Part shown: piece by piece, positions 21,709 to 34,141 of the stretch
How the letters are laid out: the number at the start of each line of letters is the position of its first letter
Position numbering within the stretch: the first letter of the stretch is position 1
IMG/VR virus record: IMGVR_UViG_3300027749_000021
Coordinates: 1-35,751 of that record
Source: a virus
Reading direction: 5' to 3' (one strand)
Length of the DNA stretch: 35,751 bases
Notes under the pieces: generated by a model
What the model was told of the DNA's origin: nothing
The model's input: the letters and a program-made list of their open reading frames with translations, nothing else
Databases searched by the model: none
Translations under genes and position numbers: made by a program

Positions 21709-23274
21709 TTATGCTATAAATACGCTAAACAAATCATTAAGTGTTCGTATATCTTCCCACATCGTCCACTTATCAACTTTAAAGCCTCCTTGTGGGGCTT
21801 TTTTATTTTCTTCTAATATCTCAAAACCTTGTATTTGTTGAGTTTTAATTGAAAACATAGGATGCAAAAATTGTGTTCGTACACTCTCACCTGTATAAAC
21901 GATATTCCGTCCGAACACTAATAAACAAAATTTTTGCTTTGTTGCTAAATCAAAGTTTAACCATTGTGTTTTTAGGTCCTGCATCTTGTTTAATACAGTT
22001 TTCATTTTATCAAAATAATCAGTAGCATCAATATTTAGGGCATCTTTTCGGCACTCCAAATCAATTAACAAATTTCGCTTTTCTGAAATTAATTTTTTGA
22101 ATGATTGCTCCCCCACTCCACCTAACAAATAACGTTCTTCTATAGCTGCAATAGTGTCTTTTGTTTTTTGTATGGAAAGATTTAGCTTCATTATTTCTTT
22201 AGTTTTACTGCCTATTGTTTCATTCACTTTTGCAGTTAAACCTTGTGTGATAATTTCAGCATCTTCTTTATTGATACTAAGGGTGTCGATAATATTTTCA
22301 AACAATGAATGTAATTTGTTTGCAGAGTAATTATTTTTTCTGTGTATTTTACAATAGTAATACCAGTAATATTTAAACTTGCCTTTGCTCGGAGCAGCTG
22401 TCATTAACTTGCCACATTCACAACGAATAATGCCACGTAAAGGAACTTCATCACGTTTTACAATTGTGCTATACTTTTCGGCAAATCTTGTTTGAACTTG
22501 CCAATAAACTTCTTCAGTAATAATAGGCTGATGCAAACCTTTAACAACTGTAGCAGCTTTGTCTTTAAATGAGGGGACATTTACAAGACCTGCATAAACT
22601 GGATTAGTTAATATTCTTGTAATAGCTGAGGTGCTTGAATTTTTAAAACCTTTTGGTTTTATCAATCGTTTAATTTCTTCTTGGCTATCACCTAAATAAA
22701 ATCTTTTGAAAATTGTTTTAATGTGTGATACACGTTCTTCATCTATAACAAGCAAAGGTTTATTGTTTTCATCCCTGCTGTTCTTGTAACCATAAGGAGC
22801 CATTGAACAATAACGACCTTGCATTAGGCTGTAAATAATTCCATTCTTAACCCTATCCACTATCCTATTGCGTTCTTCATTGGAAGCAAATGCAGTCATA
22901 AACCTAACCATCAAATATGTTTGATTAGAAGTGTCGAGGTCTGGCGGTTCTGAAATTTGAATAACTTTAATGTTTAGCTTTTCTTTAAAGTAGCGTTCCT
23001 TGACCATTGCATCTACAGGATCAGTTCTACTAAATCTATCGAAGTGAGTAACTATTAAATATTTTACCTCTTTATTTAATTTGCAATAAGATTCTAAATC
23101 TTTGAATGCTGGGCGGTCAAAGGTCCAGCCACTTTTACCATCATCAATAAATGTTTTGGAAAGTGTTAATTTATGATAGTTGCAATATTCTTGTATTCGC
23201 CTAACTTGGTTATTGATGCTATTTGCGGAGCTATCTTTATCTGATAAACGAGCGTATGCAACAGCTTCTCCCAT
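21709..23274 (-). CDS. int: Large serine recombinase (phage integrase)
   Basis: The protein has 521 residues. The catalytic domain has AVAYARLS with Arg9 and nucleophile Ser11, NQVRRIQEYC, DDGKSGWTFDRPAF and DRFSR (Arg80, Arg83). The recombinase domain has MAPYGYKN and ILTNPVYAGLVN. The zinc ribbon has CECG (Cys285, Cys287) with Cys308 and His311, followed by a coiled coil (about 350-400). It integrates and, with a partner factor, excises the phage. It starts on a TAATG junction with the XRE gene. Near its end (21781-21801) the plus strand forms a terminator-like hairpin. Confidence 0.93.
   Translation of the reverse strand: MGEAVAYARLSDKDSSANSINNQVRRIQEYCNYHKLTLSKTFIDDGKSGWTFDRPAFKDLESYCKLNKEVKYLIVTHFDRFSRTDPVDAMVKERYFKEKLNIKVIQISEPPDLDTSNQTYLMVRFMTAFASNEERNRIVDRVKNGIIYSLMQGRYCSMAPYGYKNSRDENNKPLLVIDEERVSHIKTIFKRFYLGDSQEEIKRLIKPKGFKNSSTSAITRILTNPVYAGLVNVPSFKDKAATVVKGLHQPIITEEVYWQVQTRFAEKYSTIVKRDEVPLRGIIRCECGKLMTAAPSKGKFKYYWYYYCKIHRKNNYSANKLHSLFENIIDTLSINKEDAEIITQGLTAKVNETIGSKTKEIMKLNLSIQKTKDTIAAIEERYLLGGVGEQSFKKLISEKRNLLIDLECRKDALNIDATDYFDKMKTVLNKMQDLKTQWLNFDLATKQKFCLLVFGRNIVYTGESVRTQFLHPMFSIKTQQIQGFEILEENKKAPQGGFKVDKWTMWEDIRTLNDLFSVFIA
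21781..21806 (+). terminator. Terminator-like hairpin inside the integrase 3' end, plus strand
   Basis: AAAGCCTC (21781-21788) pairs with GGGGCTTT (21794-21801), one G-U pair, loop CTTGT, followed by a T-rich run on the plus strand. It lies antisense to the integrase, about 70-100 bases inside its end. In a prophage joined at 21600-21708 it would stop host transcription entering from that side. Confidence 0.6.
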
Positions 23275-23615: not shown

Positions 23616-23710
23616 TTAACAAATGTTTTAATTGCTGAATAAATTGCTATGCAGATAAGAAATATTACTCCAAATAAAATGTTTAGTTTATGTCTGTCGG
23701 AAATTTTCAT
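23612..23710 (-). CDS. 32-residue membrane peptide in the lysogeny operon
   Basis: The product reads MKISDRHKLN, then a hydrophobic stretch ILFGVIFLICIAIYSAI, then KTFVK. It has one membrane segment with a basic N side. The start codon overlaps the repressor stop (TAATG) and the stop overlaps the XRE start (ATGA). These two tight junctions in the middle of a three-gene operon are strong support for a real gene. It could be an immunity or superinfection exclusion peptide made in lysogens. The function is unknown. Confidence 0.7.
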   Translation of the reverse strand: MKISDRHKLNILFGVIFLICIAIYSAIKTFVK

Positions 23711-24483
23711 TAATTAATAACAGTTAGTTCATTCGATTTATAAATGCCAGTAACCTTAAACAATTTAATAATTGAATCTGATGCAACATAAAATGGTGGA
23801 TATGCTGCTTTACCCTCTCTTGCTCCACTTTCAAATTTCATAGTATTATCACTTATACATTCAACTATTCCATTATCTTGGTCATCACTTTTAAAGAACA
23901 ATCGCTTAATCCATAAATCACTTTCACGTTGTATGACATAAACAGAACCAGGAACAATTTGTTTGTCCGTAATTTCTCTAATGCCAATGATTGCTCCTGG
24001 GGGATAGTTAGGCATCATACTATTGCCTGAGATACGAATTGCATATTGAGAGCCTTTGAATAGGTCGCTAATGTGTAACACGCCCTCATTCTTATTTACT
24101 GGTAATATCTCCCCTCCTAACAAAGTTCCAGCGTTAGCAGAAATATCATAATAGGTTAATGTGTTAGCATCATTTAATTTTTTATCCCTCCTTTGTTTTA
24201 TATAGTCTTTAGAATCTTCATTTATACTATTGCTTTTCCCTTTATTCAAGGGGTAAGTTTTATTATTATTTCTTTCTAAAATGTTAATTTTTACATTAAA
24301 AACCTCTTGAAAACTTTTTAAAAAGTTTTTACTTGCAGCTACTCTTCCTGACAAATAATTTGATATAACGGCTTGAGAAAATCCTGTTTTCAAAGAAATA
24401 TCAACATCTTTTTTAATAATTCTTTTTGCTTTCAAATCTTCTACAACCCTTATCAGTTCTACGTTTATGTCATTTGTTTTCAT
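23710..24483 (-). CDS. CI/LexA-like repressor with S24 peptidase domain
   Basis: The protein has 257 residues. The N-terminal helix-turn-helix is at about 24-56 (VDISLKTGFSQAVISNYLSG). The C-terminal S24 domain has a likely cleavage site Ala118-Gly119 (SANAGTLLGG), nucleophile Ser155 (ISGNSMMPNYPPGA) and general base Lys193 (LWIKRLFF). RecA-stimulated self-cleavage would lift repression after DNA damage. It is divergent from the Cro-like gene across an operator region and heads the lysogeny operon with coupled downstream genes. Confidence 0.9.
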   Translation of the reverse strand: MKTNDINVELIRVVEDLKAKRIIKKDVDISLKTGFSQAVISNYLSGRVAASKNFLKSFQEVFNVKINILERNNNKTYPLNKGKSNSINEDSKDYIKQRRDKKLNDANTLTYYDISANAGTLLGGEILPVNKNEGVLHISDLFKGSQYAIRISGNSMMPNYPPGAIIGIREITDKQIVPGSVYVIQRESDLWIKRLFFKSDDQDNGIVECISDNTMKFESGAREGKAAYPPFYVASDSIIKLFKVTGIYKSNELTVIN

Positions 24484-24591: not shown

Positions 24592-24798
24592 ATGACAGTA
24601 CCAGAAAAGACATTAAAAATTTGGATTGAATTGAGAAGTGAAAAAGATACAAAGAAAATTGCTACTAATGCTGGTGTAAGCACTGTAACAATTCAAACAG
24701 CATTTAATACAGGAGTTTGTAATGATGAAGTATTTGAAGCAATGGCAAAGTTTTATAATGCAAAAGCAAAAAGAGTTAAAAAATTATTATTAGCCTAA
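24592..24798 (+). CDS. Cro-like regulator
   Basis: The product is 68 residues with a helix-turn-helix at about 18-45 (DTKKIATNAGVSTVTIQTAF) and a basic end (NAKAKRVKKLLLA). It is the first gene of the early operon and is divergent from the repressor, the usual place of Cro. It probably binds the same operator and favours lytic growth. The end overlaps the next start (TAATG). Confidence 0.7.
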   Translation: MTVPEKTLKIWIELRSEKDTKKIATNAGVSTVTIQTAFNTGVCNDEVFEAMAKFYNAKAKRVKKLLLA

Positions 24799-24893
24799 TG
24801 AACCAACAGCCACAAATAACAGAGTTGCATCAGTTGTTAATTGAGGCATTGTTTGGACAAATTTTAAAAGAGGCAAACCCTAAAAAAAAATAG
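24798..24893 (+). CDS. 31-residue early peptide
   Basis: The product starts MNQQPQITELHQLLIEALFG and ends in three lysines. It is probably one amphipathic helix. It begins on the TAATG junction with the Cro-like gene and ends one base before the next gene. This spacing supports a real gene despite its size. The function is unknown. Confidence 0.5.
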   Translation: MNQQPQITELHQLLIEALFGQILKEANPKKK

Positions 24894-24894
24894 T

Positions 24895-25188
24895 ATGAAC
24901 CAAGAATTAGAAAAACATTATCAAACATTACTTGAAAGGAAAAGCTGGTTGCAGTCTATGTTAAGTAAGAATGACGATGCTTTAATGAATTACAGACCAT
25001 TTAAAAAAGATGCTCATTTGTTTTCTGATGAGATTGCAAAAAACGAGAAAGAGTATCAAGAAATGTTGATACACCTAAGAGCTTGCCACAATGAACCGAT
25101 TGTAAACAATGCTACACCTATGCCTTACTTTCCTGCTGATATGTTTGATAAATTAGACGAGATAAGTATTATAACAAATAAAAACTAA
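24895..25188 (+). CDS. Small helical early protein, function unknown
   Basis: The product is 97 residues with a coiled-coil-like first half (EKHYQTLLERKSWLQSML, then DEIAKNEKEYQEMLIHLRAC) and a short Pro-rich end (PMPYFPADMFDKL). No membrane segment was seen. It belongs to a run of small early genes. I do not recognise a family. Confidence 0.6.
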   Translation: MNQELEKHYQTLLERKSWLQSMLSKNDDALMNYRPFKKDAHLFSDEIAKNEKEYQEMLIHLRACHNEPIVNNATPMPYFPADMFDKLDEISIITNKN

Positions 25189-25199
25189 ACCCTAACGAT

Positions 25200-25409
25200 A
25201 TGTTACAACAAACCACATCACAAGTTCAAGGAACAATTACTATTCTGCTAACAGATAAACGATTGCCAACAGTAGATAAGTTAAGCAAGTTTCAGTTAGA
25301 ACACTACACAAAAAGACTTGCTGAAGCGACAGCAAAAGAAGTAAAAAATTATGCAGAGATTAGTCATTTACGCAAAGAAGTAAACCAATTTAAAGCACTT
25401 TCAAACTAA
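25200..25409 (+). CDS. Small helical early protein, function unknown
   Basis: The product is 69 residues. A short strand-like start (QGTITILLTDKRLPTVDKL) is followed by a long charged helix (LEHYTKRLAEATAKEVKNYA) that could form a coiled coil. It lies 11 bases after the previous gene. No known function is recognised. Confidence 0.55.
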   Translation: MLQQTTSQVQGTITILLTDKRLPTVDKLSKFQLEHYTKRLAEATAKEVKNYAEISHLRKEVNQFKALSN

Positions 25410-25414
25410 CAATT

Positions 25415-25582
25415 ATGAGAATTGAATACAACACATTAACAGCAATTATTATCTGTATTGGAGTAATAGCAGCAGCAATAATGATTATAATAGATGCAGA
25501 AAGAGCAGATGAACCTATTGCAAATAATGGTGATGACTTTGCTGGATGGGAACTTAATGATCACGATTTTAATGGTAATTAA
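25415..25582 (+). CDS. 55-residue single-pass membrane protein
   Basis: The product starts MRIEYNTLTA, then has one membrane segment (IIICIGVIAAAIMIIIDA, about 11-28), then an acidic tail rich in Asp and Asn (NNGDDFAGWELNDHDFNGN). It is placed 5 bases after the previous gene and 2 bases before the next, in a clear early operon. The function is unknown. A small early membrane protein could act in host takeover. Confidence 0.6.
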   Translation: MRIEYNTLTAIIICIGVIAAAIMIIIDAERADEPIANNGDDFAGWELNDHDFNGN

Positions 25583-25584
25583 TT

Positions 25585-25821
25585 ATGGAACTAATAGCAG
25601 TACATAATAAGATTGACTATGTTATTTCAAGGGTAAAAGTATTGATGCCTGTTGAAGTTCCAGAGTATTACGATTGCAGTTTATTGGAATATAAAGAGGC
25701 TTATTTAATCACAGCTGCAAAAAATTTTACCGAGTATTTAAAAGAGAATAATCAAAAGAATTTTAAAGTTTTTGGAGTTGCACAAAGCAAGATGAATAGC
25801 GAAGATTTTATAATAGAGTGA
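25585..25821 (+). CDS. Small early protein, function unknown
   Basis: The product is 78 residues, soluble and helical: IAVHNKIDYVISRVKVLMPV, then CSLLEYKEAYLITAAKNFTE. It closes the first early block. A 151-base gap with two hairpins follows. I do not recognise it. Confidence 0.6.
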   Translation: MELIAVHNKIDYVISRVKVLMPVEVPEYYDCSLLEYKEAYLITAAKNFTEYLKENNQKNFKVFGVAQSKMNSEDFIIE

Positions 25822-25840
25822 TTTTTTCATAGGGTTAAAT

Positions 25841-25954
25841 GCCTCGTGCTTGTCTAAGTGTCGGAGGCGGTTTTTTACAAAAGTTATTTTAAAGATGGTT
25901 TTCATACAAGCATAACAATCGTTAGTGAAGTCGGCTTGTTTCTACAAGCTGACT
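25841..25954 (+). ncRNA. Gap with two hairpins, possible terminator or leader RNA
   Basis: First hairpin: GCCTC and GAGGC close an 18-base interior, followed by GGTTTTTT (about 25841-25876), which looks like a terminator. Second: AGTCGGCTTGT (25929-25939) pairs with ACAAGCTGACT (25944-25954), one G-U pair, loop TTCT, no T run, 18 bases before the next start codon. The pair may be a terminator or attenuator and a leader structure for the following genes. No promoter box was found between them. Confidence 0.4.
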
Positions 25955-25972
25955 AAATTTTAAACAAGTAAA

Positions 25973-26149
25973 ATGAAAATATTTGAAACATTCCTTAGAT
26001 GCAAATGTGGTAGGCTTAAAAATGCCAACTACACTTCAAAACAAACAGAAGTAATAGCAGACTGTGAATGTGGAATTAAATTAATAAAAAATGTTGATAG
26101 TAGAAGAAAAAATAGCAATGAGAATTTGCAGCAAGTGTGGGGAAGATAA
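25973..26149 (+). CDS. 58-residue zinc-ribbon-like protein
   Basis: The product is MKIFETFLRCKCGRLKNANY and so on, with two Cys-x-Cys-Gly knuckles (CKCG near 10-13 and CECG near 31-34), which could hold one zinc ion. It overlaps the next zinc-ribbon frame. The C-terminal part after residue 40 lies in the overlap and is less typical. The reading frame is open and follows a hairpin. The function is unknown. Confidence 0.5.
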   Translation: MKIFETFLRCKCGRLKNANYTSKQTEVIADCECGIKLIKNVDSRRKNSNENLQQVWGR

Positions 26150-26282
26150 AGAATTAGAAAAAGACTTTACAAGAAAGCCTACCAATCCACAAGGACGAAA
26201 CACTATTTGTAAGGCTTGCACACATAAACAAAGATTAGAACGTGATGCAAGACTTGAGTTTGAACGAAACCAATTTTATTAA
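26091..26282 (+). CDS. Small zinc-ribbon protein
   Basis: The product is 63 residues, or 54 from a second start at 26118 (MRICSKCGEDKE), which looks more natural. Cys-x-x-Cys pairs CSKC and CKAC are spaced as in small phage zinc fingers (KELEKDFTRKPTNPQGRNTI between them). A basic, charged end follows (KQRLERDARLEFERN). Such proteins often bind nucleic acid. It overlaps the preceding zinc-ribbon gene in another frame. Confidence 0.6.
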   Translation: MLIVEEKIAMRICSKCGEDKELEKDFTRKPTNPQGRNTICKACTHKQRLERDARLEFERNQFY

Positions 26283-26283
26283 A

Positions 26284-26364
26284 ATGACAACAGTAAACGA
26301 TTTAATCAATGATGCTTTTTTAAAGGTTGCATTTGCACCAACAGAAGCAGAGGGATTAGAATAA
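26284..26364 (+). CDS. Possible 26-residue peptide
   Basis: The frame reads MTTVNDLINDAFLKVAFAPT, then EAEGLE. It starts two bases after the zinc-ribbon gene and ends just before a hairpin. The size makes it uncertain. No function can be proposed. Confidence 0.3.
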   Translation: MTTVNDLINDAFLKVAFAPTEAEGLE

Positions 26365-26368
26365 AAAA

Positions 26369-26388
26369 AGGGTTGTTGCAGCAACCCT
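26369..26388. terminator. Hairpin with minus-strand T run
   Basis: AGGGTTGT (26369-26376) pairs with GCAACCCT (26381-26388) with one U-G pair and loop TGCA. The A run before it (26363-26369) gives a T run on the minus strand only, so it is a good terminator for antisense transcription and a weak one for the plus strand. It lies before the ERF gene and could act as an attenuator. Confidence 0.5.
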
Positions 26389-26431
26389 ATCAATAAAACA
26401 ATAAATATTTTATCATCAAAAAAACGAAGTT

Positions 26432-27010
26432 ATGGAAAAAAGTCAATCAATTAAAAATTTGGCAGCAGCATTAATACTGTTTCACGTTAAAGTAGAAACT
26501 GTAAAAAAGGATAGTAACAACCCATTTTTTAAAAGCAAGTATGCAAGCCTAAGTAATATCTTAGATGTTATTCACGACCCTTTACAAGAAAGTGGTTTAA
26601 TATTCTCTCAATTACCCACAGATGCAAATGGATTAACAACTATTTTGATGCACGCAGAAAGTGGCGAATTTATTCAAGCTACTTATGAAATGCAGCCAAC
26701 AAAGAATGACCCACAAGGAAGAGGTTCTGCTATCACTTACCAACGCAGATATGCACTTGCTGCAATACTTGGATTGAATATAGATGATGATGATGATGGT
26801 AATGCTGCAAGCCAACCAGCTTCACAGCAAACGACTGATGATAAACCTTGGTTAAACAAAACAGAGAAAGATAAGGTTACTCTTACTAAAGAATGGAAAC
26901 AAGTTGTGGCAGCCTTACAAAAAGGGATAAGAACAATCGAACAAGTTAAAACTGCCTACAAATTGAGCAAAGAAAATGTTATTGAATTATCAAATATAAA
27001 ACCTCAATAA
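26432..27010 (+). CDS. erf: ERF-family single-strand annealing protein
   Basis: The product is 192 residues. It shows the ERF pattern: NPFFKSKYASLSNILDVIHD, SGLIFSQLPTDANGLTTILM, HAESGEFI, and the hallmark NDPQGRGSAITYQRRYALAA followed by GLNIDDDDDG. ERF proteins anneal single strands, circularise phage DNA and help recombination. The C-terminal 60 residues are a less conserved helical region. It is followed closely by genes in the same operon. Confidence 0.92.
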   Translation: MEKSQSIKNLAAALILFHVKVETVKKDSNNPFFKSKYASLSNILDVIHDPLQESGLIFSQLPTDANGLTTILMHAESGEFIQATYEMQPTKNDPQGRGSAITYQRRYALAAILGLNIDDDDDGNAASQPASQQTTDDKPWLNKTEKDKVTLTKEWKQVVAALQKGIRTIEQVKTAYKLSKENVIELSNIKPQ

Positions 27011-27011
27011 T

Positions 27012-27353
27012 ATGTCTAAGAAATTCTCATACTGTGGCAAATGCTACACCGAAGAAAAAAACTTTGAAGATATATCTTTTGAGGATGAAAGCGATGAACA
27101 CCACTCTTGTTGCCCAATATGCAAAACTGATTTATATCTCACAGAAAGCGATGTGTTGCCTGTAAAACAACAGCCAGCACCATTGATTGTAAGTGTTGGC
27201 AAAAAGAAATTTGATTTGAATGAATGGGAAGAAAAAAAGGAGTTGGCACAAGCGATACAAGATGCAAAGCTTGATGATTATATTAAAGACTTTGCTAAGG
27301 ATGGAAAAGAAACGGCTGAAAGAAATTATTTTAAAACTGCTAACAATGCTTAA
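27012..27353 (+). CDS. Small Cys-rich protein, possible zinc binding
   Basis: The product is 113 residues. The N-terminal part has CGKC (8-11) and CCPIC (33-37), which could form a zinc ribbon. A charged helical C-terminal half follows (WEEKKELAQAIQDAKLDDYI). It is one base after the ERF gene and overlaps the next gene by 8 bases. It may be an ERF partner or DNA-binding accessory. The family is not recognised. Confidence 0.55.
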   Translation: MSKKFSYCGKCYTEEKNFEDISFEDESDEHHSCCPICKTDLYLTESDVLPVKQQPAPLIVSVGKKKFDLNEWEEKKELAQAIQDAKLDDYIKDFAKDGKETAERNYFKTANNA

Positions 27354-27657
27354 CGCTTATCACAAAATAAACATTCACAATCAACTTTCAGAAATACTTG
27401 AAAAAGCCTTGAAAGCTAATTTAATGGTGGATGATTATAAGCAAAAGATAGTTGAATATAAAGCGATGCCATCATTTCAAAAGTGGCAATGTTTTTACAC
27501 CGAAACCGAGTTAAATGCAGAGCAAAAAAAGTATGAGAGATACTATCGTTTACTTGTTAGGCAGTATGATAATTTGATGGAACAAATAAATAACAAATCT
27601 GCAGAACAAAGGATAGATAATAATACAGCTATCATTTTAAAACAATTGAAATTTTAA
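27346..27657 (+). CDS. Small helical early protein, function unknown
   Basis: The product is 103 residues from the start at 27346 (MLNAYHKINIHNQLSEILEK). This start was chosen because the frame upstream overlaps the previous gene deeply and reads like noise. It is helical and charged (ELNAEQKKYERYYRLLVRQY). It ends directly before the next start codon. Confidence 0.6.
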   Translation: MLNAYHKINIHNQLSEILEKALKANLMVDDYKQKIVEYKAMPSFQKWQCFYTETELNAEQKKYERYYRLLVRQYDNLMEQINNKSAEQRIDNNTAIILKQLKF

Positions 27658-27900
27658 ATGCTACAAACAGACATTTTACAGCTAATTGAAAAAGAAAGTA
27701 AGAAGCAAAAATTAGAGTTGCCCAACTATCCAATTCATCAAGTTGCACAAGCTGCATTGATTAATGCTGATGCTGGTTATTTAATTGATAAGTGTGTGAG
27801 TAAAAAATATAAAGGTTATACAGATAACGATGCAGAAATTAAAGCTGCTGCAATATCAATAGTAGCACAAACATTAAGATTTATTGAAAGTTTAGATTAA
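27658..27900 (+). CDS. Small early protein, function unknown
   Basis: The product is 80 residues, helical: LQLIEKESKKQKLELPNYPI, HQVAQAALINADAGYLIDKC, ISIVAQTLRFIESLD. The layout resembles short conserved early proteins of other phages, but I cannot name it. The stop overlaps the next start (TAATG). Confidence 0.6.
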   Translation: MLQTDILQLIEKESKKQKLELPNYPIHQVAQAALINADAGYLIDKCVSKKYKGYTDNDAEIKAAAISIVAQTLRFIESLD

Positions 27901-28247
27901 TGAAAGGAGCAATAGACATATTAAAGTTTTTTCATCATTTGCGAATAGCAATGGAATACGCAATGTCTTTTACTAAAGACTATCCAAATTCTGTTTTTTC
28001 AAAAATGCTAACAAAGTTTTCAAAAGAAATTGCTGGAATGTACGATTACACTATTAAGAGTTACAACGTAAAAAAATTTGCTCCAGATACAATTCCATTG
28101 ATTGAACAAAAATGGAATGCAAGCAATTGGGATGAGTTAGCAGTTGTAGAGAAAATAGGTTTGATGAATGATGAACAAATTGAAGCTATTGAAAAAATAA
28201 TTGATAGTATGTTATTAGGCGAAACAGTTGATCCAATTTTAAATTAA
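27900..28247 (+). CDS. Early protein, function unknown
   Basis: The product is 115 residues with aromatic and helical parts (IDILKFFHHLRIAMEYAMSF, KWNASNWDELAVVEKIGLMN) and an acidic end. It is coupled to the previous gene by TAATG and followed after 5 bases by an HTH gene. No motif is diagnostic. Confidence 0.55.
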   Translation: MKGAIDILKFFHHLRIAMEYAMSFTKDYPNSVFSKMLTKFSKEIAGMYDYTIKSYNVKKFAPDTIPLIEQKWNASNWDELAVVEKIGLMNDEQIEAIEKIIDSMLLGETVDPILN

Positions 28248-28252
28248 GCATT

Positions 28253-28552
28253 ATGAACAAAGTACATTGGACGAAAGAACAACAACAGTTTTTGGAGGAT
28301 AATATTAAAAACAGCGTTGAAGATTTAGCAACTCAACTAGGCGTTAGTACGTTCACTATTCGAAAGCATATTAGGTTATATGAAATACGAAAAGGTATAA
28401 GTATTACTCGACCATATATATATAAAGAACCAAAGGTTGAAATATCACCACCAAAAGTATTCAAGCGACCTAAAGCAGTTTATTCCAATGCTCCAACAGG
28501 AAGTGCTTTAATAGCAAAGATTTTAGAAAATGATAATGTTCCATTATATTAA
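28253..28552 (+). CDS. Helix-turn-helix DNA-binding protein
   Basis: The product is 99 residues. Residues 5-46 carry a helix-turn-helix: WTKEQQQFLEDNIKNSVEDL, then ATQLGVSTFTIRKHIRLYEI. The rest is a basic, Pro-rich tail (PKVEISPPKVFKRPKAVYSN). It may regulate early genes or act in replication. Confidence 0.65.
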   Translation: MNKVHWTKEQQQFLEDNIKNSVEDLATQLGVSTFTIRKHIRLYEIRKGISITRPYIYKEPKVEISPPKVFKRPKAVYSNAPTGSALIAKILENDNVPLY

Positions 28553-28567
28553 TTTAATCCTTTTAAA

Positions 28568-28912
28568 ATGTACCAACAACCAGATTTATTCACAGGACAA
28601 GACCTTGCCTCTAAAGGCTTGCAAATAGCCGTTGATAATGCTAATAACAACATTGACAATTGGAGTAGTAAAGCTATCAATGCAGCGTTTAAATATGTTG
28701 ATATACTACCAAAGGACCACGTTTTTCAAGTTGAGGATATTAGAGAATGGGCATTGCAAGAAAACCTTGTTGATTTACCACCAAGCAACAGAGCCTGGGG
28801 ATGCGTTGTTAGACCTCTATTGACTTCTCAAAAAGTTGTTAAGAATGGTATAATGCCAGTTTCTAATAAGAAAGCTCACGGAGCAAATGCTAACAGTTAT
28901 AAAAGAATTTAA
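28568..28912 (+). CDS. Conserved phage early protein, winged-helix-like
   Basis: The product is 114 residues. The pattern DHVFQVEDIREWALQENLVD, then LPPSNRAWGCVVRPLL and a late His (KKAHGANANSYKR) occurs in many phage and prophage early proteins of this size. The PPSNRAWG block is the most telling. The fold may be a winged helix that binds DNA. The biochemical role is unknown to me. It sits before an HNH gene. Confidence 0.6.
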   Translation: MYQQPDLFTGQDLASKGLQIAVDNANNNIDNWSSKAINAAFKYVDILPKDHVFQVEDIREWALQENLVDLPPSNRAWGCVVRPLLTSQKVVKNGIMPVSNKKAHGANANSYKRI

Positions 28913-28915
28913 GAA

Positions 28916-29239
28916 ATGTGTTTAACTAATTCACAACGAATAAAAATTTTAAATCAGTCAAATTGTAGGTGTTTTTATTGCGGTAAGCCAATTGAAAGAA
29001 AGTTTGAAATTGACCACTTTAACCCATTTTCAAAGTCAAGGGATGGTACTGTTGATAATTTGGTAGCAAGTTGTATCCCTTGCAATAAAACAAAAAGTGA
29101 TTTATCAATAGATGACTTTAGGGCTATTGTTGAAAAGGCGAAAGGCGAGCCAATAATTTTCTTTTTTGAATATTATGGCATAGTAAAAAAAGGTGGAAGT
29201 TGTGTTTATATGAACACATTGAACGAACAAATGTTTTAA
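28916..29239 (+). CDS. HNH endonuclease
   Basis: The product is 107 residues. It has zinc Cys pairs (CFYC near 19-22 and CIPC near 53-56) around the HNH core FEIDHFNPFSKSRDGTVDNL, where the Asp-His is the metal and catalytic centre. The C-terminal part is helical, then hydrophobic (EPIIFFFEYYGIV). It may be a free-standing nuclease of the early block. The family also includes packaging nucleases, but the position argues for an early role. Confidence 0.8.
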   Translation: MCLTNSQRIKILNQSNCRCFYCGKPIERKFEIDHFNPFSKSRDGTVDNLVASCIPCNKTKSDLSIDDFRAIVEKAKGEPIIFFFEYYGIVKKGGSCVYMNTLNEQMF

Positions 29240-29256
29240 TAAATAAATTTAATAAA

Positions 29257-29979
29257 ATGGCAAAAAGGGGAGATAAATGGAAGCAAGATTGGTACTTAAA
29301 ATTAACTCCTCAAGCTAAACTTTATTATACGTATTTCTATGATAATTGTAATCATATTGGAATTATTGAATTAAGTAGAGTGATGATGAGTGCACAGATA
29401 GGGTTTTCTAATAGAGTGAGTGTGGAAGAGTTTTTACCAGAACTGAAAGAGGTTGTGAGTTTGTTTAAAGATGGTAATAAATTGTGGGTTAAAAGTTTTA
29501 TTAATGAAAATTATGGGGTAATTGGTGTGGAGAGTTCTATTCATAAGACCGTGTTGAAAGAGTTGGCTAAATATAAAGATGATGAAAATTGTAGTGATGA
29601 TTTTAGAAGTCTAATACATTCATTATCAGAAAAAATTTATAGGGTACAGGTAGGGTACACATACCCTATAATAAATAAAAAGAAAAATAATATAGAAGAT
29701 AATATTATTAAGATAGATTTTAAAGAAGAAAAACAAAAATTTTTAAATGACAAAATTTGGTTTGAAAATTTTGGTTCATCAAAACATATTCTACCAGATC
29801 CGCTTAACAAAATGATTGATGAGTTTTTAAAAGATTTAGAACTAAAAGAAGAATTTAGAGATTGTCAAGGCTTAAAAAGCTATTTCACAAATTATTTTAA
29901 CAAACAAAAAAATGGAAACAATAGGCGAAGTATTGAAAATACAGAAGTTGGGAAGTCAATTAAACTCGATAGAGCTTAA
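29257..29979 (+). CDS. Replication initiator-like protein
   Basis: The product is 240 residues from the start at 29257 (MAKRGDKWKQDWYLKLTPQA). This was chosen over an earlier in-frame start that overlaps the HNH gene. The N-terminal half looks like a winged-helix replisome organiser (AKLYYTYFYDNCNHIGIIEL). A charged linker follows, and then a C-terminal helical region (IDEFLKDLELKEEFRDCQGL, KSYFTNYFNKQKNG). It overlaps the loader-like gene by 68 bases. An origin could lie nearby, but no clear iterons were seen. Confidence 0.6.
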   Translation: MAKRGDKWKQDWYLKLTPQAKLYYTYFYDNCNHIGIIELSRVMMSAQIGFSNRVSVEEFLPELKEVVSLFKDGNKLWVKSFINENYGVIGVESSIHKTVLKELAKYKDDENCSDDFRSLIHSLSEKIYRVQVGYTYPIINKKKNNIEDNIIKIDFKEEKQKFLNDKIWFENFGSSKHILPDPLNKMIDEFLKDLELKEEFRDCQGLKSYFTNYFNKQKNGNNRRSIENTEVGKSIKLDRA

Positions 29980-30826
29980 TCAAGAATCTTACATTTTAAC
30001 ACTAGAAGAAGAGAACGAAATTTATTTAAACGAGCTGAAAAGGATTAAATTGGATGCTGTACGCTCAATGGCTGCTGTTTACAAGACTAAAAGTGAAATT
30101 GAATATAAAATGTCGCAAATAGATTTTGATGCTAAAATTGATAAGTTAAAATTATTTTCTATATGCAACTCAAACAAACATCAAGCATTGTGGCATAAAA
30201 ACCAGGAGTTAAAAAGAAAAGAAGATGAACGTAGTAGGATTGAAAATATAAAAAAGACTTGTGATGCAAAATATTTTTACAAGCTAATAGCTTACAACAG
30301 TCCACTTATTTGCCCAAAACAAAGCCAACTAATTTATAACTCGCAAACAGAACATTTGATAAAAACTATTTGTTTTTTTATGAGTGATGATGAACGTTTT
30401 GAAACCGAGCTTGGCTATGATTTTAAAAAAGGCTTATGGATTAGGGGAATCAGTGGATTAGGTAAAACACATATTGTAAAGTGCGTGGCAGATAATGAAC
30501 GCAAACCTATAAAAATTCATAGTGTCTTAGATATTAATAGTAAGTTGAAAGATGATGGTAAATACCATATAAACATTTCCGATTACAACTACATTGATGA
30601 TGTGGGAACTGAAGAACTTGAGGTTTGGTTTTATAAAACAAAAATGGGTAGTTGGTTTAAAGAATTTATTGAGAACTATGTAATGAAAAATATGCCATAC
30701 AACAAACTTATAGTTAGTACAAATTTAAGTTTTGATGAAGTTGAAAGTCGCTACTCATATAGGGTAAGAAGTAGGGTCAGAGGTATGTTTAACATAGTTG
30801 ATGTTGTAGGTAGTGATTTAAGGTAA
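29912..30826 (+). CDS. DnaC-like helicase loader ATPase
   Basis: The product is 304 residues. A coiled N-terminal region is followed by an AAA+ domain: Walker A GISGLGKT (179-186), Walker B YIDDVG (227-232), sensor IVSTNLSFDEVESRYSYRVR and an arginine-rich end (SRVRGMFNIVDVVG). It should load the host helicase at phage origins with the upstream protein. The start overlaps the previous gene by 68 bases. A later Met at 30068 would remove part of the N-terminal region. Its stop is 7 bases before the first hairpin site. Confidence 0.8.
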   Translation: METIGEVLKIQKLGSQLNSIELNQESYILTLEEENEIYLNELKRIKLDAVRSMAAVYKTKSEIEYKMSQIDFDAKIDKLKLFSICNSNKHQALWHKNQELKRKEDERSRIENIKKTCDAKYFYKLIAYNSPLICPKQSQLIYNSQTEHLIKTICFFMSDDERFETELGYDFKKGLWIRGISGLGKTHIVKCVADNERKPIKIHSVLDINSKLKDDGKYHINISDYNYIDDVGTEELEVWFYKTKMGSWFKEFIENYVMKNMPYNKLIVSTNLSFDEVESRYSYRVRSRVRGMFNIVDVVGSDLR

Positions 30827-30833
30827 TACTTGC

Positions 30834-30926
30834 TACCAACGAAAAAGTGTTGAAGTTGTTGGGCAAAAAAAGACACTTCAACACGCAGACGCAGTCTGCC
30901 CAATAACTGCAACACAAATGTTGGGC
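30834..30926 (+). repeat. attC-like site A
   Basis: Left core TACCAAC (30834-30840), gap GAAAAA, arm GTGTTGAAGTTGTTGGGC (30847-30864), partner arm GCCCAATAACTGCAACAC (30898-30915), gap AAAT, right core GTTGGGC (30920-30926). Arms match at 16 of 18. The middle also contains ACTTCAACAC (30875-30884), a perfect partner for the first ten bases of the left arm, so two folds compete. No upstream module start matches this left core. Confidence 0.8.
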
Positions 30927-30972
30927 GAAGAATGGGCTATTAATTAGGGTGTGCCAAACTAAAAAATAATAT

Positions 30973-31224
30973 ATGGAAGCAAGTTTAAGAGCAAAAGAAT
31001 TATTGATGCAACACTATGAAAAAGTTAGTGGTGTGCCAATGACTGTAATTTCTAAAATGGTTCAATTTTTTAATACTGATAGCCATTATAAAACGGCTAA
31101 AGAATGCTCAATGATAACAGTTGCATATTTAAAAAATGAAAATTCAGAATTTTTTGGAATGGTAGGGCAAACTTTTAATAACGACTATTGGGATGATGTA
31201 GAAAATGAATTAAATAAATTATAA
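30973..31224 (+). CDS. Module 1 gene, 83-residue protein, function unknown
   Basis: The product is MEASLRAKELLMQHYEKVSG and so on, a small helical protein with no signal or membrane segment. It begins 46 bases after the right core of site A. A second gene of the same module starts 4 bases after it. I do not recognise a family. Confidence 0.6.
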   Translation: MEASLRAKELLMQHYEKVSGVPMTVISKMVQFFNTDSHYKTAKECSMITVAYLKNENSEFFGMVGQTFNNDYWDDVENELNKL

Positions 31225-31228
31225 AACT

Positions 31229-31438
31229 ATGGCAATAAGTTTAAACACTTTAGCAAAATGGCTAAACAAAAGAATTGAACTAACTAATACTTGTCATTTT
31301 ACTGGTCAAAAAGGGAAAGTAATAAGTATTGAGGATAGTAATGATAAAGATGCTTTTTTTGGGTATGAGATTAAGATAAAATTAGATATTGGCAATATAG
31401 TAACAGCATATAAATTTGAAGGTCTAACCTTAATTTAA
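31229..31438 (+). CDS. Module 1 second gene, small beta-rich protein
   Basis: The product is 69 residues: MAISLNTLAKWLNKRIELTN, then GQKGKVISIEDSNDK and FFGYEIKIKLDIGNIVTAYK. It looks like a small beta barrel. It ends 16 bases before the left core of site B. The function is unknown. Confidence 0.55.
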   Translation: MAISLNTLAKWLNKRIELTNTCHFTGQKGKVISIEDSNDKDAFFGYEIKIKLDIGNIVTAYKFEGLTLI

Positions 31439-31454
31439 ACGCTGATAATTTTTA

Positions 31455-31590
31455 GCCCAACGAACAGGGCTTGGCGTTTGGCCCTTGAATTTGAAATACT
31501 AATGCTCAAAATTTAAACTAAAGATGAATATAATTAATGAAGTTCAGCCAATTTCCGTCTGCAAGGGTAACGCCAAGCCTAATGTTGGGC
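31455..31590 (+). repeat. attC-like site B
   Basis: Left core GCCCAAC (31455-31461), gap GAACAG, arm GGCTTGGCGTTTGGCCCTTG (31468-31487), partner CAAGGGTAACGCCAAGCC (31562-31579), gap TAAT, right core GTTGGGC (31584-31590). The left arm has two extra bases near position 12, which would bulge out. The 74-base middle contains the start codon of the module 2 gene. Confidence 0.85.
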
Positions 31591-31808
31591 GAAGTTTTTA
31601 TGTCATTAAAATTCATAAAGAATTGCAAGATAAAATAAACATTTATTTGTTTAAACCTACTATTTACAGATTTGCAGATAGAAGTGTAGTTTCAGATTAT
31701 CTAGGCTACTGTACTGATTGGACTACTTGGTATTTGCCAAAAAGACTACATAATAAAAATTTAAAAATAGTGTCTTACGATAAAACTCAAATAACTGTTG
31801 GTTGGTAA
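31524..31808 (+). CDS. Module 2 gene, starts inside site B, function unknown
   Basis: The product is 94 residues. The first 21 or so residues (MNIINEVQPISVCKGNAKPN) are read through the middle and right arm of site B, and the rest is module sequence (RSFYVIKIHKELQDKINIYL, DYLGYCTDWTTWYLPKRLHN). No in-frame ATG exists after the right core, so a start in the hairpin is the best choice, unless a rarer codon is used. The stop lies 6 bases before the left core of site C. Confidence 0.5.
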   Translation: MNIINEVQPISVCKGNAKPNVGRSFYVIKIHKELQDKINIYLFKPTIYRFADRSVVSDYLGYCTDWTTWYLPKRLHNKNLKIVSYDKTQITVGW

Positions 31809-31814
31809 AATTTC

Positions 31815-31952
31815 GCCCAACGATAGGGCTTGCTGCTGTTGGGGAAATCAAGGCTCGTCCGCCCAATAGCTTATTAACTAAAAGTACAATAATGAACAAA
31901 AAGATGATAGCGGTTCCGTCCTGCCCCAATAGCAGTAAACCCAATGTTAACC
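31815..31952 (+). repeat. attC-like site C
   Basis: Left core GCCCAAC (31815-31821), gap GATA, arm GGGCTTGCTGCTGTTGGGG (31826-31844), partner CCCCAATAGCAGTAAACCC (31924-31942), gap AAT, right core GTTAACC (31946-31952). Arms match at 16 of 19. A second partial partner, GCCCAATAGC, lies at 31861-31870. The middle carries two in-frame ATG codons (31892 and 31904) of the HNH gene. Confidence 0.85.
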
Positions 31953-32572
31953 GCCGTTTATGGTCGGAGCAGGAACGTCAAATTATGATTAGTATGTTTT
32001 CAAATAATTATACTGATGATGTTTGTAAAATACTCAACCGTAGTTATCATTCTGTTTGCTCACAGTCTAATTTGATGGGTTTAAAAAAGTCGGATAGTTT
32101 CAGAAAAATGGAACTTCAAAGACAGGCTGATAGGCTGAAAGTTGCAGGGGAAAAATTCAGATACAAAAAAGGTAGAGAGCCTGAAAATAAAGGTAAGCCA
32201 ATGAGCAATCAATTATACAATAAGTGCAAAGGCACAATGTTTAAAAAAGGAAATGAGCCACACAATACTAATTACGATGGTCACGAAAGAATAAGCAAAG
32301 ATGGCTACACCAAAATAAGAATAAGCAAAGGGAAATATGTTTTAAAACATAGGCTTATTTGGGAGCAAACAAACGGCAAAATTCCAAAAGGTTTTATTGT
32401 TGTTTTTAAAGACCGAAATCAACAAAATATAACTATTGAAAATTTAGAGTTGATAAGTAGAGAGGAAAATATGCAACGCAATACAATACATCGTTTTCCT
32501 GCTGAATTAAAAAGTACAATAAGATTAGTTAATAAATTAAAACGAAATATAAATGCCAAAGAACAAAATTGA
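31892..32572 (+). CDS. Module 3 HNH endonuclease, starts inside site C
   Basis: The product is 226 residues from 31892. After 20 residues coded by the hairpin (ending SSKPNVN), a Myb-like or HTH part begins at once (RRLWSEQERQIMISMF, DVCKILNRSYHSVCSQSNLM). The HNH part follows: YDGHERISKDGYTKIRISKG, KYVLKHRLIWEQTNG, KGFIVVFKDRNQQNITIENL. The conserved opening Trp sits just after the right core, so translation must start in or before the hairpin. It resembles free-standing phage HNH nucleases. It overlaps the next gene by 20 bases. Confidence 0.75.
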   Translation: MNKKMIAVPSCPNSSKPNVNRRLWSEQERQIMISMFSNNYTDDVCKILNRSYHSVCSQSNLMGLKKSDSFRKMELQRQADRLKVAGEKFRYKKGREPENKGKPMSNQLYNKCKGTMFKKGNEPHNTNYDGHERISKDGYTKIRISKGKYVLKHRLIWEQTNGKIPKGFIVVFKDRNQQNITIENLELISREENMQRNTIHRFPAELKSTIRLVNKLKRNINAKEQN

Positions 32573-32777
32573 AGATTTAAGAAATCACTTGTTTGCAACC
32601 TTAGAAGCCTTACAAGATGAAGACAAGCCTATGGAAGTTGACAGGGCTAAAACTATTGCAGATGTTGCACAGGTAATTGTTAATAGTGCAAAAATTGAGG
32701 TTGATTTTATCCGTGCTACTGGTAGAAGTCAAGGCACAGGGTTTATACCTGAGGAACGTCTGTTAAATGGCGGTTAA
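32553..32777 (+). CDS. Module 3 second gene, DLRNHLF phage protein
   Basis: The product is 74 residues: EDLRNHLFATLEALQDED, then RAKTIADVAQVIVNSAKIEV and a short end. This pattern is common in small phage and prophage early proteins, often beside an HNH gene as here. The function is unknown to me. Its stop codon TAA lies inside the left core of site D (GGTTAAC), as is frequent for integron cassette genes. Confidence 0.75.
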   Translation: MPKNKIEDLRNHLFATLEALQDEDKPMEVDRAKTIADVAQVIVNSAKIEVDFIRATGRSQGTGFIPEERLLNGG

Positions 32778-32874
32778 CGAAAAAGGCTTGGCGAAGAAAT
32801 GGAATTTGGAAAACAAAAGCTGAATAGCGATAGCGGAACGTCAAGCCATTTTTTTGCCAAACCATATGTTAGCT
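32772..32874 (+). repeat. attC-like site D
   Basis: Left core GGTTAAC (32772-32778), gap GAAAAA, arm GGCTTGGCGAAGAAATGG (32785-32802), partner CCATTTTTTTGCCAAACC (32846-32863), gap ATAT, right core GTTAGCT (32868-32874). Arms match at 15 of 18. CAAGCC at 32842-32847 gives a second partner for the start of the left arm. No useful start codon lies in the middle. Confidence 0.8.
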
Positions 32875-32930
32875 GTTGCTTTTTGTCTGCAAGACAATGG
32901 ACACAATTATTAAAAATTAAATTATAAATA

Positions 32931-33347
32931 ATGAATCAGTTTTTACAAATTAAACATTTAGCTGCATACTTACCTTATGGGCTACCAATTACAAATGGTT
33001 ATAGAGATGACTTAATAATGTTTGGCATAAAAAGCCATTATATTTGTTCATATTGGTTTGTCAATGGTGCAGAAAAAAATACAGTAAGTAATTTTTTAGA
33101 AAGTTACCCATTTTTAAAGCCGTTGTCTGATTTAAAAGATGTTGTAAGTACATCAATGAGTGAAATAAACACAGACACTTTAATAGCTATTGAGATAAGC
33201 GAGTTTGCGAATAAAAAAATATCATTACATAATTTGTCTTATGCAGCTTATGAAGAACTTTTAAGAAACCATTATGATGTATTTGGTTTGTTAGAAAAAA
33301 ACATTGCTATTGATTACAGTAAGCGTTGTGTCCAAAGTAACAGCTAA
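32931..33347 (+). CDS. Module 4 gene, phage early protein, function unknown
   Basis: The product is 138 residues: KHLAAYLPYGLPITNGYRDD, then SYPFLKPLSDLKDVVST and LRNHYDVFGLLEKNIAID. The pattern 'LAAYLPYGL...PLSDL...DVFGLL...AID' is known to me from short phage proteins of Bacteroidota, without a function. It starts 56 bases after site D. The stop TAA is inside the left core of site E (AGCTAAC), and the last residues may therefore be specific to this junction. Confidence 0.65.
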   Translation: MNQFLQIKHLAAYLPYGLPITNGYRDDLIMFGIKSHYICSYWFVNGAEKNTVSNFLESYPFLKPLSDLKDVVSTSMSEINTDTLIAIEISEFANKKISLHNLSYAAYEELLRNHYDVFGLLEKNIAIDYSKRCVQSNS

Positions 33348-33471
33348 CGAAAAAGGCTTGAAGCAGGTGGGGAATTTATAGATGAAGACGAGCCTTTGCA
33401 GTTGGTTGAATAGAGAACTAATGATGAGCCGAGTTTCGTCTGCCCCACTTGCTGCAAACCTAATGTTAAAT
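33342..33471 (+). repeat. attC-like site E
   Basis: Left core AGCTAAC (33342-33348), gap GAAAAA, arm GGCTTGAAGCAGGTGGGG (33355-33372), partner CCCCACTTGCTGCAAACC (33443-33460), gap TAAT, right core GTTAAAT (33465-33471). Arms match at 15 of 18. ATG codons in the middle and at the right core are in frame with the module 5 gene. Confidence 0.85.
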
Positions 33472-33516
33472 GCCGTTTTTGTCGAGCCGACAAGACACAA
33501 AATAAAATTTAAAACA

Positions 33517-33852
33517 ATGATAAAGTCAGCAAAAGAAATTTTAGAAAACTATTTTCCAAACCCTGATGATTTGGTTGATGGTAAAGTAAAAAATGTTATT
33601 ATTTCTGCTATGCAGAAGTATGGGCAACAATTTAAAAAATGGGTAAAAGTTACAGATGATATGCCTAAGATTGGCGTTGATAAAAACTTCCCCAATTGTA
33701 GCGAATTTGTTTTAACAACAGATTGCAATACTGTTAATTACTCATATTTTGAAGAAGGCGAATGGTGTTGTGCAAAAACAGATGAACCTTATAGAAACTC
33801 GTTCAAACCTAAATATTGGATGTCAATTTCTGATACGCTGCCTGTGTCGTAA
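33517..33852 (+). CDS. Module 5 gene, DUF551-like protein
   Basis: The product is 111 residues from 33517 (MIKSAKEILENYFPNPDDLV), chosen as the first start clear of the hairpin. The frame is open back through site E, so longer forms starting at 33382 or 33463 are possible. The C-terminal half fits the DUF551 pattern of phage early proteins: KKWVKVTDDMPK, a strand with EFVLTTDCNTVNYSYFEEGE, and KPKYWMSISDTLP at the end. The function is unknown. The stop is 3 bases before the truncated core F. Confidence 0.75.
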   Translation: MIKSAKEILENYFPNPDDLVDGKVKNVIISAMQKYGQQFKKWVKVTDDMPKIGVDKNFPNCSEFVLTTDCNTVNYSYFEEGEWCCAKTDEPYRNSFKPKYWMSISDTLPVS

Positions 33853-33855
33853 AAT

Positions 33856-33865
33856 GGCATTTAAC
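33856..33865 (+). repeat. Truncated core F (right end of the array)
   Basis: GGCATTTAAC is the exact complement of the module 5 start (GTTAAATGCC at 33465-33474). In sites A-E the AAC is followed by GA and a hairpin. Here it is followed by TCTCTGC with no hairpin, so the array ends exactly after AAC. Confidence 0.75.
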
Positions 33866-33910
33866 TCTCTGCTTTACGAAAGTTTATCATACAAAGTATA
33901 TTACTAATCA

Positions 33911-34141
33911 ATGCAAATAAGTATTAACTATATAGCCAAGTGGCAAGTAAAAAACAATCCAAAATATAAATGGACTACTTGCAAAAAATTAGTTAATACT
34001 AATACAGGGAAAGAGATTATTAAAACAACGTTTGGCAATGGAAAAGAACCTGGTTATTACATTGATGGAACATTTATTAAATGCAAAGATTTGAAAGACT
34101 TTATTGAGTTGATTCCTAAAAAAGAATACTGCCCATTTTGA
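33911..34141 (+). CDS. Small protein after the array, function unknown
   Basis: The product is 76 residues: ISINYIAKWQVKNNPKYKWT, then TGKEIIKTTFGNGKEPGYYI and FIELIPKKEYCPF. It is beta-rich and basic. It is the last plus-strand gene before the convergent endolysin and appears to be backbone sequence. I do not recognise it. Confidence 0.6.
   Translation: MQISINYIAKWQVKNNPKYKWTTCKKLVNTNTGKEIIKTTFGNGKEPGYYIDGTFIKCKDLKDFIELIPKKEYCPF

Follow-up and report, generated by a model that had tools for sequence, protein, structure and literature searches.

Accessory regions of phages turn over fast, and the enzyme involved is usually unknown. By what means such modules come and go is the question raised by the IMG/VR virus record IMGVR_UViG_3300027749_000021, whose 35,751 bases (a 35.8 kb record, be it fragment or whole) were analysed in full and are called here the window. 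It encodes terminase, portal and tape measure proteins and is a temperate tailed phage of Bacteroidota, and its early operon ends in an array of five small modules, each with a hairpin site of the attC type. We consider it probable that this array is an integrase-less phage integron with an attI of its own, on which a host recombinase would act in trans and whose inverted cassettes would be transcribed together with the early operon. Here base-exact joins are found together with a named candidate class of recombinase.

Hairpin sites and module ends

We scanned the whole window with a naive pattern (AAC, 4-7 nt, stem, 3-6 nt, GTT, the second gap being not larger than the first) and the five sites, S1 to S5, were exactly ranks 1-5 of the + strand, with scores of 29.5-40 (Table 1). 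In 400 Markov-shuffled strands the best single match had a mean of 23.2 and a maximum of 33.0 (9/400 reached 29.5) and the fifth-best match was at most 22.0, compared with 29.5 for the fifth in the window. A covariance model whose training set consisted of 21 sites from bacteria and plasmids, with no phage sites (R2), recovered S2, S3, S4 and S5, all on the + strand and with E values from 9e-11 to 5e-8. S1 is the most divergent site and was matched only by R1, a covariance model trained on the window sites and on sites of other viral contigs, S1 itself being part of that training set. No match at E 0.01 was obtained with R1 in eight control genomes (about 40 Mb), and Rfam gave no match for the window sites. 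In agreement with the initial annotation, which had placed five attC-like hairpins here from the letters alone and had named covariance models as a check, both the scan and the models find the sites. A weak additional R1 match at the repressor (24363-24462, minus strand; 18 bits, E 0.02 to 0.3) is probably due to chance.

Alignment of S1-S5 with 17 sites of other viral contigs (alignment A2, 22 sites) shows that the sites conserve structure rather than sequence, as attC sites do. The AAC and GTT cores are invariant in 22/22 sites, and 12 of the 15 stem pairs present changes on both sides. Stem cells are paired in 95.7% of cases vs 69.6% in shuffles, cells with both sides changed amount to 90 vs 27, and the covariation score of the stem, 0.64, drops to 0.16 or less when the partners are slid. 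Among S1-S5, the mean column identity is 58%, with little common primary sequence. The two gaps are unequal and there is no bulge; even so the hairpins have a polarity, because one G.T position is invariant in 22/22 sites. In single-strand folding the + strand is more stable than the minus strand in four of the five sites, the strands of S3 being about equal, as expected if + is the working strand. The bottom strand, which the annotation had suggested to fold, is therefore not the favoured one in S1-S5.

The modules delimited by these sites start with GTTRRRY and end with RYYYAAC, with complementarity between the ends over some 15 bases. This complementarity reaches a mean of 11.9/15 in 32 phage modules vs 7.3 with swapped partners (0/10,000 permutations) and 11.8/15 vs 7.4 in 32 bacterial modules, and it is predicted by circular cassettes, where both ends meet and form a paired R box. 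Modules C1-C5 measure 0.2-0.8 kb and their open reading frames (ORFs) belong in part to phage gene families (phrog_19552, phrog_1891, phrog_2044 and phrog_10841). The HNH endonuclease ORF of C3 (PF13392, E 4e-18; phrog_1891) is listed as 31802-32572, and its true start is probably inside C3. As had been noticed from the letters, two genes stop inside a left core: the TAA codons of 32553-32777 and 32931-33347 overlap the AAC at 32776 and 33346, respectively.

The window has a serine integrase (21709-23274) and a CI-like repressor (23710-24483). The early genes lie on the + strand from 24592 to 34141, and the minus strand carries the late genes and a metallophosphoesterase. The array is the final part of the early operon, from a DnaC-like helicase loader (29912-30826) to a small gene at 33911.

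Table 1. Sites, modules and candidate docking site of the window; R1 and R2 are the covariance models, and "ends match" gives complementary positions between the two module ends.
Feature	Position	Strand	Content	Support
S1, attC-like hairpin	30838-30922	+	AAC to GTT	scan rank 2; R1 52 bits; covarying stem
S2, attC-like hairpin	31459-31586	+		scan; R1; R2 E 9e-11
S3, attC-like hairpin	31819-31948	+		scan; R1; R2 E 2.7e-8
S4, attC-like hairpin	32776-32870	+		scan; R1; R2 E 8e-10
S5, attC-like hairpin	33346-33467	+		scan; R1; R2 E 4.5e-8
C1, module	30920-31461	+	GTTGGGC...GCCCAAC; ORFs 30973-31224 and 31229-31438 (phrog_19552)	ends match 12/15
C2, module	31584-31821	+	ORF ending 31808	ends match 14/15
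C3, module	31946-32778	+	HNH endonuclease ORF; ORF 32553-32777 (phrog_2044)	ends match 14/15
C4, module	32868-33348	+	ORF 32931-33347 (phrog_10841)	ends match 14/15
C5, module	33465-33865	+	ORF ending 33852; right-end AAC without a hairpin after it	ends match 14/15
attI-like docking site (putative)	33863-33885	minus	AAACTTTCGTAAAGCAGAGA/GTT	fixed end common to loci L001-L005 despite other modules; similarity to host attI-like sites

The fixed right end and the turnover of modules

The right end of C5 reads AAC/TCTCTGCTTTACGAAAGTTT (the slash marks the join) and has no hairpin. Arrays of relatives, which were found via the metallophosphoesterase, stop at the same place and base behind different modules, with AAC/TCTCTTATATACGCAAGTTT in L005 and AAC/TCTCTAATATAAGCAC in L002 and L003, and likewise in L004 and L001. 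The window, L001-L005, L057, L011 and six Flavobacterium psychrophilum phages all have this hairpin-less end, at one and the same base. On the minus strand it reads AACTTTCGTAAAGCAGAGA/GTT in the window, AACTTGCGTATATAAGAGA/GTT in L005 and AACTTTCGTATATTCAGAT/GTT in L057. In bacteria with arrays of the same sites, the stretch from the stop of the recombinase gene to the first cassette contains an attI-like site, such as AACTTTCGTATATTTATGA/GTT (L225) and GGTGCGTATATTTATGA/GTT (L216). Over 24 bases, eight host and eight phage attI-like sites have a mean identity of 10.3, vs 6.5 for random GTT positions of the same loci, and 0/5,000 draws reached the observed mean. By similarity and position, the right end of the array may be considered an attI. 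The site most distant from it is S1, whose left box, TACCAAC, deviates from RYYYAAC; this left core is taken to be phage sequence, the second half of the docking site. L006-L009 have neither array nor attI at the corresponding place. In L011 (8990-10350) two tandem arrays are found, with similar left boundaries (ATCGTTTTGTTG...ACGATAACG) and the identical right end AAC/TCGCTGCTACCCGCTA, as if a docking unit had been duplicated.

The same locus could also be an ordinary gene-forward array that has lost its last attC, its right end then being no attI. The ORFs do stop at AAC, like those of classical cassettes, and no hairpin follows the last module, but a hairpin-less end recurring at the same base would require the identical loss many times, and its sequence resembles host attI sites. 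Moreover, in no phage of the group did we see an intact attC separating the last module from the fixed end, the minus-strand reading gives a full set of five cassettes, five attC and one attI, and the extra cassette of a cultured phage described below sits at the right end. We find this explanation very unlikely. Of the five-site array first annotated, the five sites stand; its fifth module, 33465-33865, whose right end abuts the attI-like site, had been missed.

Turnover at this end can be followed in related phages. L002 and L003 are 93-94% identical on both flanks and their cassette differs up to the same base. A DNA similarity search of the array against the phage collection gave no match, and peptide patterns found no relatives of the gene upstream of the array, the C4 protein or the C1 protein in the viral collection. 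With tblastn, the second gene of C1 has 64% identical relatives in 12 F. psychrophilum phage records (Unahavirus), and in phage 6H this relative is situated between two sites. Phages 6H, 2A, 1H, FPSV-D15, FPSV-D35 and FPSV-F7 contain about five to eight such sites each, all on the gene strand; together with 23T they are published cultured phages (L242-L248), in which the variable region from the toprim gene to the endolysin is an attC-type cassette array. On 23T cmsearch came back empty, though its sites match those of 6H letter for letter, and we take this as a tool artefact of the 29 N in that stretch. The same right end is preceded by five different modules in six of the F. psychrophilum phages. 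Compared over roughly 18 kb, which is not their whole genomes, FPSV-D15 and FPSV-D35 share 12,681 identical bases, followed in D35 by an extra unit of 390 bp, and then 5,142 identical bases. The unit consists of a site and a gene, has 6 bases (TAACGT) in common at the join, and immediately adjoins the fixed right end, AAC/GTATAGATTTCACTC. With this single-cassette difference, our data come nearest to an observed event. The comparison of related phages that the annotation had proposed has thus an outcome: modules are gained, lost and swapped with exact joins at the core. The outcome that it had named as refuting, no covariance-model matches and modules fixed in synteny, did not occur. As a separate observation, two cassettes of L005 (11825-13405, minus strand) resemble by eye DNA methyltransferases, which are also present in cassettes of other phages.

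These exchanges might instead be due to homologous recombination through repeats, the hairpins being transcript structures such as terminators or processing and regulatory elements. The hairpins are intergenic and fold as the RNA strand, and several near-identical repeats are common to the FPSV phages, where homologous exchange could contribute. Against it, the window sites share little primary sequence, the outer boxes of a module match one another and not a common repeat, joins fall at one base with only 6 bp in common between D15 and D35, and hosts have arrays of the same sites beside a recombinase. We give this explanation hardly any credence.

Host arrays, gene polarity and the candidate recombinase

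When the site pattern was searched in genome contigs, matches were mostly in Bacteroidota, and the R1 counts for seven Bacteroidota genomes ranged from 8 to 68 sites each. A tyrosine recombinase adjoins the arrays in eight genomes (alignment A3), in one plasmid and in several further genomes of the Flavobacterium group. In the A3 recombinases the catalytic R, K, HxLRH, H and Y are invariant and the proteins end with the SPLD.L motif, known from integron integrases; they have an extra N-terminal stretch, they do not have the IntI-specific insertion that corresponds to residues 186-243 of VchIntIA, and the array is usually at their 3' side. They score below the cut-off of TIGR02249 and reach 203-214 bits with NF040815, slightly under its cut-off of 220. 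In a FastTree tree of 20 sequences they form a clade of their own, apart from IntI1 and Xer, the outgroup support being weak. The nearest relatives outside this clade (L229 and L233) are tyrosine recombinases next to IS91-family transposases. At L220, L228, G058:C69, G065:C156 and G089:C46 the recombinase frames have about 580-610 aa instead of 350-400, and these long frames appear by eye to contain repeated N-terminal WS..K.W..P units. The plasmid, from Chryseobacterium sp. SNU WT5 (NZ_CP041688.1, L231:8974-19014), has an array of four sites and a recombinase (WP_143853951) without the IntI-specific patch; its cassette genes include Crp/Fnr, RidA and a metallophosphoesterase, and a group II intron reverse transcriptase is nearby.

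Among 61 genomes of the Flavobacterium group, sites were found in 51 and the recombinase in 31, with a median of 11 sites per genome in those with the recombinase vs 2 in those without (P 5e-4). The array of genome G087, with 32 sites over about 35 kb, extends up to the recombinase. The window codes for no integron integrase, and no A3-class recombinase is encoded in it or in 18 phage records. Both the lack of an integron integrase and the description as an integrase-free array in a temperate phage are thereby upheld for the initial annotation. We also considered the integrase of the phage itself as the agent and rejected it: the window codes for a serine integrase, and the FPSV-D15 integrase reaches 48 bits against A3, vs 312-466 for the class.

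Phage and host arrays differ in the polarity of their genes, scored as the strand of the longest ORF between two sites relative to the strand of the model. The longest ORF is opposite to the model strand in 32/36 intervals of host arrays, and in 29 of the 30 intervals of G087, which was used for no model. Of the 34 intervals in phage arrays (14 contigs), 33 have it on the strand of the model. Per contig, the split is 14/14 vs 1/9 (P 2e-5). The IMG/VR contig L052/L066 (IMGVR_UViG_3300028826_000141) has at least eleven sites with host polarity; filed as viral, it is probably a bacterial integron array, and it was excluded from the phage set after the result had been seen, so that counted as phage it is one more discordant contig. 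The polarity of the hairpins relative to attI is identical in phage and host arrays, hence what is inverted inside a phage cassette is the gene, and the strand drawn in the initial annotation is reversed with respect to the gene and hairpin polarity of bacterial sites of the same family. Insertion on the other strand cannot yield the split, because the circle fixes one orientation of gene and hairpin; phages must therefore hold a different cassette stock. In this sense, the split argues that phage and host stocks are kept largely apart. The initial annotation had suggested that modules could move between phage and host; what the data show is exchange between phages. The simplest cause of the inverted phage genes, we infer, is selection on the direction of transcription.

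In the proposed mechanism, the phage would contribute the docking site, on the minus strand at the 3' end of the early operon, and five cassettes, each a module with complementary ends and a foldable attC-type hairpin. The phage sites would be worked in trans by a tyrosine recombinase of the host, from the class found beside chromosomal arrays of the same sites. The cassette circle would be cut at the core (G/TT on the minus strand) and enter at the docking site, which would place the most recent cassette beside attI. Phage cassette genes face attI and could thus be read by the phage operon, which enters from the far end; host cassettes read away from attI. The empty-site joint predicted in the window phage is TACTTGCTACCAAC/TCTCTGCTTTACG. 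The sequences themselves show the sites and the ends of the modules, the right end that stays fixed, the exact gain, loss and exchange among close phages, and the polarity split, as well as the absence of the recombinase from these phages and its linkage to host arrays; from this synteny we infer that an A3-class recombinase may perform the reaction, acting on the phage DNA in trans.

A fragment of a chromosomal integron array captured by chance, an ordinary cluster of attC sites lacking integron-integrases (CALIN) that is now inert, would equally come without a recombinase carried by the phage, and CALINs in phages are known (PMC9892861). This origin is very unlikely: the gene polarity is opposite to that of chromosomal arrays, phage gene families are found inside the cassettes, the attI-like end stays in one place as modules change, and otherwise identical phages differ by a single cassette.

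Several points weigh against the trans-acting integron. No recombination reaction was observed, and a completely empty attI was found at no locus. The attI-like sites of L011 and of the F. psychrophilum phages resemble host sites only weakly, and the far flank of L002 and L003 also differs over about 40 bp. Nine of the 61 Flavobacterium-group genomes have seven or more sites and no recombinase match, perhaps owing to draft gaps. Finally, the IntI domain is considered necessary for attC recombination (PMC9668308, which cites Messier and Roy); a recombinase without it may depend on some other feature, or the agent may be a different one.

Relation to known integrons and meaning

By definition the phage array is a CALIN, with five tandem attC-type sites at short spacing and no integron integrase nearby. 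It would work like an integron and is not classed as a complete one, which has its integrase in cis and its cassette genes mostly directed away from attI; here 33/34 face attI. CALINs were described in Polaribacter phage P12002L, Pseudoalteromonas phage PH101 and Tetrasphaera phage TJE1, and the same work showed that IntI1 can use attC sites from other phages (Qi et al. 2023, PMC9892861). Those phage CALINs likewise have attC-type clusters, small cassettes and no integrase; neither an attI nor a polarity difference is known to have been reported for them. R1 gave only two weak matches in P12002L, so its site family differs from that of the window.

Vibrio-type chromosomal integrons share with the arrays described here the GTTRRRY...RYYYAAC modules, the hairpin sites, an attI-like site beside a tyrosine recombinase and the length of the arrays. 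They differ in that the Bacteroidota recombinase has no IntI domain, is extended at its N terminus and mostly lies with its 3' side towards the array, and in that the phage arrays have their genes turned towards attI. In the reversed integrons of Spirochaetota (PMC9668308) one component is also in an unusual orientation, but there it is the integrase gene that is turned, and in these phages the cassette genes. An extra domain defines IntI (PMC9668308, PMC2426708); the A3 recombinases have the catalytic residues and the adjacency to arrays of that family and not this domain. Their nearest protein relatives are NF040815 and the IS91-associated tyrosine recombinases, from which they differ by forming their own clade and by being tied to attC-type arrays.

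Bacteroidota are named among the phyla with integrons (PMC8618304), at first with In0 elements only and then with one complete integron, in Salinibacter ruber, reported for Bacteroidetes by IntegronFinder 2.0 (PMC9024848). The presence of sites in 51 of the 61 Flavobacterium-group genomes suggests that integrons are common in Bacteroidota, and their scarcity in IntegronFinder is probably due to a recombinase without the IntI-defining domain. In the literature searched, which leaves out most subscription journals and preprints, we found no description of inverted phage cassettes or of a phage attI of this type, nor of a Bacteroidota recombinase without the IntI domain beside attC arrays. Clusters of attC sites in phages have precedents; for the phage attI, the polarity split and the unusual recombinase no earlier description turned up in that literature.

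We lean slightly towards a broader view, in which Bacteroidota have a widespread integron system with a non-IntI recombinase and phages exploit it with a reversed attI and a separate set of inverted cassettes, each stock being antisense, and probably silent, in the array of the other. As cultured phages exist that differ by one cassette, the question is directly testable. The polarity split, if true, would show how two cassette stocks on one machinery stay separate: phages would have their own store of exchangeable genes, on which an enzyme of the host would act.

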